From a virus, in IMG/VR virus record IMGVR_UViG_3300032315_000747, positions 1 through 64,000 of that record: 64,000 bases of DNA; one strand, written 5' to 3'. The translations under genes were made by a program, and so were the position numbers. The notes under the pieces are model-generated. The model did no database searches and was not told the origin of the DNA. It saw only the letters and a list, made by a program, of their open reading frames with translations. Positions 8,726-11,377 of the stretch are shown piece after piece (position 1 is the stretch's first letter; each line of letters opens with the position of its first letter).

Positions 8726-9205
8726 ATGAGAGCGCACGAATTTTTAACAGAACATCAAATGGACAACGTAGATGGTTGGGGCGCGACCCCGAACAACCAA
8801 AACGTCAATTACATGGGACTGCGTGTCAGTATGCGTCCATCAGTTTTCCTCGAGCTTGCCGCACCCCTGACAGAACCAACTAGTTCAAAAGCTATCTTGC
8901 AACATCTAGAACAAGGTGGAAAACTTGCTGCTCCGTTTCTATTGATAGACATACCTGAAGAATGGGAAGACGGTGATCTTTCTCGTCCTGCTAGAGTTTC
9001 GGGACACGAAGGTAGAAACCGAATGATCGCCTTACAAGATTTCGAAGGCACGCAAACTCAAGAAGTGCATATCTTCCCTAGACAATATCGCAATCGTCAC
9101 ATGACTCCAGAATGGATAGAAAAATTGAACAGCCAGTTATATCCAGAGAGAAGTGCTGAACCTATCTCAGGACCTTTTTGGCGAGAATTGATAAAAAAGG
9201 CTTGA
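8726..9205 (+). CDS. Unknown protein with capsid-targeting leader, ParB-like motif
   Basis: 159 residues starting MRAHEFLTEHQ (LTE end). The region PFLLIDIPEEWEDG ... RVSGHEGRNRMIALQ resembles the strand plus G-H-E-G-R-x-R turn of ParB/sulfiredoxin-like nuclease-fold proteins, but the match is short and I hold it loosely. Last of the run of leader-bearing genes that began at 4885. Confidence 0.5.
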   Translation: MRAHEFLTEHQMDNVDGWGATPNNQNVNYMGLRVSMRPSVFLELAAPLTEPTSSKAILQHLEQGGKLAAPFLLIDIPEEWEDGDLSRPARVSGHEGRNRMIALQDFEGTQTQEVHIFPRQYRNRHMTPEWIEKLNSQLYPERSAEPISGPFWRELIKKA

Positions 9206-9261: not shown

Positions 9262-9423
9262 ATGAATAAGCATCTTCAGGTCGGTATCGGTGGCGTCAAC
9301 TGCAACTGTTGCTTTCCTGCTCCCGGTTCTAATCACCGCAAGCTGCGTATCCGCAAAGCAAAGCGTGATGAGGCTAAGGCTGCTTGGAAGATCGAGGCTA
9401 TCAATAAAAATAATGACGTGTAG
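9262..9423 (+). CDS. Small Cys-rich phage protein
   Basis: 53 residues from the ATG at 9262, which follows the promoter at 9202. Contains NCNCCFPAPGS then a very basic helix (RKAKRDEAKAAWKIEA). The short CxCC motif plus basic tail recurs in small T4-like phage proteins; the function is unknown. Expressed early by its promoter. Confidence 0.6.
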   Translation: MNKHLQVGIGGVNCNCCFPAPGSNHRKLRIRKAKRDEAKAAWKIEAINKNNDV

Positions 9424-9959: not shown

Positions 9960-9988
9960 TTGACAACAGCATGGGCCAGTGCTATATA
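9960..9988 (+). promoter_or_regulatory. Early promoter, TTGACA-17-TATATA
   Basis: TTGACA at 9960-9965 and TATATA at 9983-9988 with a 17-base spacer, upstream of the outer-membrane protein gene and downstream of a terminator. Confidence 0.8.
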
Positions 9989-9993
9989 TTAAC

Positions 9994-10019
9994 ACTGACT
10001 ATTGATAACAGTAGTCAGT
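9994..10019 (+). promoter_or_regulatory. 5' leader hairpin of the outer-membrane protein gene
   Basis: ACTGACTA / TAGTCAGT, eight pairs around a ten-base loop, followed by TTTT, starting about where transcription from the 9960 promoter should begin. It could stabilise the 5' end, as in ompA-type leaders, or act as an attenuator. It is seen only as an inverted repeat. Confidence 0.6.
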
Positions 10020-10038
10020 TTTTAACAAAGGAAAAAGT

Positions 10039-10602
10039 ATGAAGAATCTATTTGCTATCGCTGCGGCTATGTCGCTAGTTGCCTTTACTACCCCTGCCCT
10101 AGCAGAACCGACCGTGACAGGTGAAGTTCATTTTGGTGATGCGCGGGGCGGCGCCCGTGCTGATTCGACTGAATATAGGGTCGAAGCCTGGGATACTATT
10201 GGAAAGGTCAACGTCGGAGCCGAGCTTCAAGCTAACCAAGCTGCTCGTGAAGGTGAACTCCAAGCTGCCTTTTCTGTCAAGGCAGGGGTCGATGGCCCGT
10301 CTTACTTCGGCGTCCAGACTGCCGTATATGGCGAATTGGGTGGAGTTCTCGCTGATGGCAACAACGGTGAGTTTTGGGGCGTTGGCGTGAAGCTTACTAG
10401 GCCTGTGTTTGGTCCAGTGTCAGTGGTTGCTGGATATCGTCACCGTGAAGGATTTGCGAATGACTACCTCAATGAAGATCGGTTGAATCTCGGACTTTCT
10501 TATGCATTTAGTGACAAGACCTCATTTGGTGCAGGATACTATCGTACTCGAGGTACTTTCGATAGTGAAACTGTCGGTGTTTCGGTAACTCGTAATTTCT
10601 AA
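10039..10602 (+). CDS. Phage-encoded outer-membrane beta-barrel protein
   Basis: 187 residues. N-terminal signal peptide MKNLFAIAAAMSLVAFTTPALA with an ALA cleavage site, then alternating amphipathic strands separated by short turns and a C-terminal phenylalanine (VSVTRNF), the usual BAM targeting end of outer-membrane barrels. The size suits an 8-10-strand barrel. It has its own promoter, leader hairpin and terminator. A phage gene of this kind could alter the host surface, for example to block superinfection; that role is inference. Porin substrate not predictable. Confidence 0.75.
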   Translation: MKNLFAIAAAMSLVAFTTPALAEPTVTGEVHFGDARGGARADSTEYRVEAWDTIGKVNVGAELQANQAAREGELQAAFSVKAGVDGPSYFGVQTAVYGELGGVLADGNNGEFWGVGVKLTRPVFGPVSVVAGYRHREGFANDYLNEDRLNLGLSYAFSDKTSFGAGYYRTRGTFDSETVGVSVTRNF

Positions 10603-10616
10603 ATAGACTAACGGAG

Positions 10617-10642
10617 TGGCGACAATTACATTGTCGCCATTT
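10617..10642 (+). terminator. Rho-independent terminator
   Basis: Perfect ten-pair stem TGGCGACAAT / ATTGTCGCCA with a three-base loop followed by TTT, 15 bases after the barrel gene's stop. The T tract is short. Confidence 0.75.
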
Positions 10643-10653
10643 CCATATCTAAT

Positions 10654-10661
10654 GATAAATA
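10654..10661 (+). promoter_or_regulatory. T4-type late promoter, GATAAATA
   Basis: GATAAATA ends eight bases before the ATG at 10670; no Shine-Dalgarno sequence is visible between them, so the transcript would have almost no leader. Confidence 0.55.
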
Positions 10662-10669
10662 TATATATT

Positions 10670-11377
10670 ATGAGAGCTACTGAATTCATCACCGAACGTA
10701 AGCGTAAAAGAAAAAAGCCCGGGAAAAAGGCGTATGGAGGATATTTCTATCCAGGGTATACCTTTTTTGGCGTTAGTGATTCGGGCGAGTCAGGTGGCGA
10801 TGGCGGGGGCGGAGAGAGCATCAACGAGGCGCCAGAGTTAGAGTTAGCCAAAAGACTCCCCTCACTCGCAAAGCATGATTATAATGCGATTGACACATTG
10901 ATGAAAAAAATTGCTCGTAAGCACAAAATCACCAGCAAAGCATTACATGACTTGTTTAAAAAGAAATTCAAATCTACACCTGATCATTGGATAAAAAATA
11001 AGCTAAACGAGACAACTAGTGAAATTGATTTAGCTGATGAAGTGCAGAAGTTTGCCAATTGGGCCAGCAAGAAAATTAACCTACAGAATCCTGTAAAAAT
11101 CGAATTAAGTATGGACACCGAAGAGGCCCAGACCAACCATCATACTGGCGGTCATACGCCAGGTTCCGACAGTATCTGGGTTTATGCTAAGAATCGTAAT
11201 CTCGTGGATATATTGAGAACTGTATTTCACGAACTTGTCCATATAAGACAAGGTGAGCTTAACATGATCAAGCCAGGTTCCAGTTATCCTGGTAGTCCTA
11301 TTGAGGCGATGGCAGACCTCTTAGCCGGAAAATACATCAAGATATATGGTGCGGATCACAATTATATCTTCCAATAG
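10670..11377 (+). CDS. Zinc metallopeptidase (HExxH) with capsid-targeting leader
   Basis: 235 residues from the ATG at 10670: MRATEFITERK (ITE end), then a very basic segment, a Tyr/Gly-rich patch (GGYFYPGYTFFG) and a Gly linker with a second IxE site (SINE at ~50-53). The peptidase part has HELVH at 187-191 and a downstream Glu in SPIEAMAD (~212), a gluzincin-like arrangement with two His and one Glu as zinc ligands. The target is unknown. A protease packaged in the head and sent into the host would act on host proteins early; inference. Confidence 0.7.
   Translation: MRATEFITERKRKRKKPGKKAYGGYFYPGYTFFGVSDSGESGGDGGGGESINEAPELELAKRLPSLAKHDYNAIDTLMKKIARKHKITSKALHDLFKKKFKSTPDHWIKNKLNETTSEIDLADEVQKFANWASKKINLQNPVKIELSMDTEEAQTNHHTGGHTPGSDSIWVYAKNRNLVDILRTVFHELVHIRQGELNMIKPGSSYPGSPIEAMADLLAGKYIKIYGADHNYIFQ

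Follow-up and report, generated by a model that had tools for sequence, protein, structure and literature searches.

Within the window, the 64,000-nucleotide stretch of viral DNA analyzed here (positions 1 to 64,000 of IMG/VR record IMGVR_UViG_3300032315_000747), an open reading frame on the plus strand at 10039–10602 encodes a predicted outer-membrane beta-barrel protein of 187 amino acids. The protein begins with a Sec signal peptide (residues 1–22, MKNLFAIAAAMSLVAFTTPALA, followed by EP) ending in an A-x-A site, with cleavage after ALA22 read by eye, and the mature form has 165 amino acids and a C-terminal Phe. Sec signal peptides and C-terminal aromatic residues are both features of outer-membrane beta-barrel proteins, and both, as originally predicted, could be read directly in the open reading frame. 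They were also conserved in our family alignment, which held 20 distinct proteins, the window's own included, with the 19 others at 35–97% identity. A22 and F187 were invariant (20/20), and A20 was nearly so.

AlphaFold, supplied with the 20-sequence alignment, predicted a signal helix followed by ten strands (pLDDT 81.8, pTM 0.75, most mature blocks at 80–95), and a shallower nine-sequence alignment gave the identical ten strands. Hydrophobic alternation within the strands, whose limits were taken from the AlphaFold model, was 2.49 vs. 1.26 by permutation (p = 0.0002), which bears out the beta-strand pattern proposed before. The model has the even number of amphipathic strands expected of a membrane barrel and the standard topology, with short turns on one side and longer, length-variable loops on the other. 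Foldseek searches of the PDB returned only membrane barrels, or proteins containing one, among the best 50 matches. The highest TM was 0.63, and function therefore cannot be transferred to the barrel protein from these structures. Among viral proteins, 38 matched the fold at E ≤ 0.001, several of them already named outer membrane proteins, so the original statement that lytic phages rarely carry such a protein was too strong. The best viral matches were six proteins of uncultured Caudovirales at TM 0.75–0.88, one of which is named porin domain. The models make a barrel fold very likely, and together with the sequence signals they argue strongly for export and an outer-membrane location.

A sigma-70-type promoter (TTGACA-N17-TATATA) precedes the gene on the plus strand at 9960–9988, with the −35 element TTGACA at 9960–9965, an N17 spacer, TGC ahead of the −10, and the −10 element TATATA at 9983–9988. 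The expectation that the gene has its own promoter was right as to its presence, but this promoter is not distinctive: it was assigned to a class (TTGACW-N16-18-TATANT) with 12 sites in the window vs. 0.4 expected. Each of 14 relative loci contains TTTACACACA a single time, in the −35 region of the barrel gene. The promoter in the window falls in the early class. At −10, many relatives carry TAAATA, a sequence that is also similar to the late motif, and the timing of barrel-gene expression is uncertain for that reason. The early class as a whole was very uniform, TTGACW-N17-(TGC)TATATT, with sites at 9202, 9437, 34300, 45575, and 48168, among others; those at 9202 and 48168 share nearly the whole spacer (TTGACTTCGGGTACCCATTTTG). 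The site at 9202 serves as the own early-type promoter of a 53-amino-acid peptide (9262–9423) with GGVNCNCCFPAPG (phrog_25404, E = 3e-18). A late-type motif, GATAAATA, was found at 10655, 27964, 55091, 57702, and 59764, in each case upstream of a start codon by between a few and roughly 30 bases. It resembles T4 late promoters and precedes several minus-strand genes as well as the gene that follows the barrel gene (10670–11377), where ATAAATA at 10655–10661 on the plus strand marks a separate unit.

The barrel gene lies between two plus-strand hairpins, both of which had been predicted. The 5′ leader hairpin at 9994–10019 (ACTGACTATTG-ATAA-CAGTAGTCAGT) has 11 pairs and a z of about −3 relative to dinucleotide-preserving shuffles. 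Transcription is predicted to start about six bases past the −10 element, which places the beginning of this hairpin at or adjoining the first nucleotide. An unpaired leader with the ribosome-binding site (AAAGGAAAAAGT) follows at 10020–10038; the site itself is written AAAGGAAAAA, and a purine-rich AAAGGAAAA was conserved in the leader alignment. Approximately ten bases past the stop codon begins a terminator-type hairpin (10613–10643, stem core TGGCGACAAT/ATTGTCGCCA at 10617–10639, z = −5.1 relative to the same kind of shuffles), which a simple terminator scan missed because the T-run is short.

Both hairpins keep their place in relatives while their sequences are unrelated. The 5′ stems of relatives read CTGACA/TGTCAG, AGTGTC/GACACT, ATCGTA/TACGAT, and GCTGCATAT/ATGTGCAGT, compared with ACTGACTATTG/CAGTAGTCAGT in the window. 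Folding of 15 early-type promoters in the window placed a strong 5′-end hairpin only at the barrel gene, the other 14 having none. The combined leader z of 13 representative family members was −8.4 (three of them, L010, L031, and L032, were not individually significant), and the leaders of four neighboring genes scored between −0.8 and +0.95. The leader of the downstream gene, named here for its HELVH motif, scores strongly because it contains the terminator of the barrel gene. Column-wise covariation on a MAFFT leader alignment was abandoned, the 3′ arms being out of register, and shuffles and the unrelated stems were used instead. What sets the barrel gene apart is thus its 5′ hairpin and not its own promoter. 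Because the hairpins hold their position with changed sequences and are absent from other leaders, the promoter-hairpin-terminator unit is, as judged by sequence comparison, real, old, and gene-specific.

The predicted layout of this leader, a 5′-end hairpin followed by an unpaired ribosome-binding site on the mRNA of an outer-membrane protein, resembles that of E. coli ompA, whose mRNA is protected by a 5′ stem-loop. The two leaders are unrelated in sequence. Like an ompA-type mRNA stabilizer, the barrel-gene hairpin is conserved and sits at the predicted transcription start. An attenuator was also considered for this hairpin and rejected. A T-run follows the hairpin in the window and is missing in several relatives, and a stabilizer consequently fits better. 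Stabilization of mRNAs is established for 5′ stem-loops and for 3′ terminator hairpins alike (PMC7509114).

A tblastn search of 50,697 phage records gave no match to the barrel protein. With four family members as queries, tblastn detected no homologue in isolated phages at E ≤ 1, the only other matches being to tape-measure proteins at E = 2. Iterated searches of IMG/VR contigs recovered about 30 loci with family members, and every contig concerned came from an uncultured virus. No host relative turned up when 84,980 species genomes were scanned twice; these scans used short peptide patterns, which distant homologues can escape. Within the sensitivity of these searches, the family has so far been found only in viruses. 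Residues Q67, G72, G91, E99, G101, W113, G114, F139, R148, G152, Y167, and F187 were invariant in all 20 aligned proteins, as was the run G132-Y-R-H-R-E137, part of a shared family motif, GYRHRE[GS]F. The gene is under purifying selection (dN/dS 0.08–0.26). Among most relatives the barrel proteins are 46–61% identical, vs. 78–86% for the adjacent DNA polymerases (99% in the two nearest). Surface proteins often diverge fast, as the barrel does relative to the polymerase. The C-terminal signal was rejected as a guide to the host: several relatives carry His at +3, but the window protein has Arg there. Porins of beta-proteobacteria with 16 strands feature His at +3 (PMC3582582).

The virus is an uncultured, T4-like virus of bacteria. 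The neighboring DNA polymerase is of the T4 type (phrog_262) and shares 45–48% identity with its counterparts in Sinorhizobium phage Phosso and Agrobacterium phage Atu_ph07. The gene order of barrel, HELVH protein, DsbA-like protein, and DNA polymerase is kept in most relatives, sometimes with extra genes in between. In Phosso, a distant phage, a DsbA-like gene near the polymerase is retained, and the annotation shows no barrel gene at the corresponding place. The most distant members lie near other genes, among them those for RtcB, NAD synthetase, or a T4-type clamp loader, which indicates that the barrel family spans several phage lineages. In having its own promoter and terminator, the barrel gene resembles a phage moron. 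Recent insertion or absence from close relatives, also expected of a moron, was not observed, the same neighbors being present in most relatives. No integrase was matched in the 81.9-kb record, perhaps a fragment, and a lytic lifestyle of the virus is only suggested by this result. In a search for the gp23 capsid protein, the controls gave no signal.

Phage-encoded outer-membrane barrels are already known, and relatives by fold, mostly unannotated, exist in BFVD. The BFVD barrels A0A6J5KT01, A0A6J5LHQ2, A0A6J5TAD3, and A0A6J7WWH4 from uncultured Caudovirales are likewise phage-borne and have the same length and fold (TM 0.80–0.88), although they are only 17–25% identical to the window protein and are named uncharacterised or porin domain. 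Pfam family PF24653 (Phage_OMP, cyanophage outer membrane protein-like) also describes a small phage barrel with a signal peptide. It matched residues 1–105 of the window protein weakly (15.1 bits), scores reached 15.1–16.9 bits vs. a cut-off of 27, and 5 of the 20 family members gave a weak match. Named phage outer membrane proteins of the same barrel type from Aeromonas phage phiAS5 (E1A206), Vibrio phage nt-1 (R9TIU5), and Synechococcus phage S-CBWM1 (A0A3G1L3F6) were weak structural matches (TM ≤ 0.53) with 10–14% identity. Lambda Lom and the Ail family are small phage-encoded outer-membrane barrels as well, but with eight strands compared with the ten predicted here, and the window protein has no Pfam match to that family. 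The sequence family, its GYRHRE motif, and above all the conserved unit bracketed by hairpins had no counterpart in the literature searched (open papers only). Environmental viruses encode many outer-membrane barrels, and to our knowledge a role is established for few of them at most. The family described here combines a sharply defined motif with a conserved position in one phage lineage and an mRNA architecture that is both unusual and conserved.

The open reading frame, the conserved unit with its hairpins, the predicted barrel, and the purifying selection, all obtained by computation, are the basis for a tentative proposal. Host RNA polymerase would transcribe the barrel gene from its own sigma-70-type promoter into a short single-gene mRNA. 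The 5′-end hairpin and the 3′ terminator hairpin would protect this mRNA, which by analogy with established pathways may yield much barrel protein. The protein would then be exported by Sec with removal of residues 1–22 and, as in established pathways, the BAM complex would fold it into a barrel of ten strands whose loops are mostly short. Once in the outer membrane, it may alter the exterior of the infected cell, most likely making it harder for further phages to adsorb or to deliver their DNA. We give this reading, ompA-style mRNA protection included, a probability of roughly 0.4, and the surface function itself is weakly inferred. The predicted extracellular loops are short, and a bulky receptor shield is therefore not evident. 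A more specific version, in which a virus-only family of ten-strand barrels with an invariant GYRHRE motif and a hairpin-protected mRNA closes the cell to competing phages through lipopolysaccharide or host receptors, seems unlikely. We know of no described superinfection-exclusion protein that is a barrel acting on lipopolysaccharide or host receptors. Both a surface function and the use by a phage of ompA-style 5′-end protection for its own outer-membrane protein are directly testable in laboratory strains.

It is possible, if doubtful, that the barrel instead forms a selective channel or gate of narrow bore and thereby alters the uptake or permeability of the infected cell, for example, to take in nutrients during infection. 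E62, E99, R134, R136, and R148, all charged and invariant or nearly so, lie on the predicted lumen face, and the PDB fold matches include KdgM, which is a narrow channel. Some family members gave sub-threshold porin-like matches (LbtU porin, best E = 4e-7), whereas the window protein scored only 13.7 bits against LbtU (E = 0.03, cut-off 90). The total score to Porin_4 (PF13609) was 29.5 vs. a cut-off of 27, but this is not a whole-barrel match: the best stretch covers just residues 9–33, mostly signal peptide, and no single stretch passes alone. Wide pores are usually absent from ten-strand barrels and one is unlikely in this model; a general porin is less likely because only ten strands are predicted. 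Binding or modification of lipopolysaccharide at the outer leaflet, in the manner of small outer-membrane enzymes, is quite unlikely. Invariant Y133, H135, and E137 on strand 7, as well as invariant Y167 and nearly invariant R169 on strand 9, are predicted by alternation to point outward near the extracellular rim, though the facing of strand-end residues is uncertain. No conserved Ser/Asp set as in PagL or omptins was seen in the family, solved structures in the PDB gave no sequence match beyond a chance match at E = 0.07, and no omptin, a type of protease with ten strands, was among the best 50 fold matches. Vibrio OmpT, which does appear among the PDB fold matches, is a porin and not an omptin.

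We consider it very unlikely that the protein acts late in infection to weaken the outer membrane for lysis or release. About 1.3 kb upstream of the barrel gene is a gene for a GH19 endolysin, which several relatives likewise have upstream, and the TAAATA of the relatives' promoters resembles the late motif; however, the promoter in the window belongs to the early class, and in distant relatives the barrel gene adjoins other genes. That the gene came from a host and is carried along passively, without any role for the phage, is highly improbable. Outer-membrane proteins are common in hosts, and the GC of the gene is somewhat above that of the window (0.505 vs. 0.426), but third-position GC resembles that of the neighbors, and the scanned species genomes held no host homologue. 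A passenger is also hard to reconcile with the purifying selection and with regulation that is kept among phages whose polymerases are 78–86% identical.

Further features were observed around the barrel gene. The adjacent gene at 10670–11377, kept beside it, has no Pfam match; its HELVH motif is zinc-peptidase-like. An extra open reading frame lies between the barrel and HELVH genes at two relative loci (L005, 2010–2573, and L022); judged by eye, that of L005 looks like a class I glutamine amidotransferase. The most distant barrel members, in L033 (5171–5950) and also in L034, adjoin an NAD synthetase gene. Upstream of the barrel gene in L014 (1987–5363), two long, repetitive proteins rich in Asn, Thr, and Ser have signal-peptide-like N-termini.
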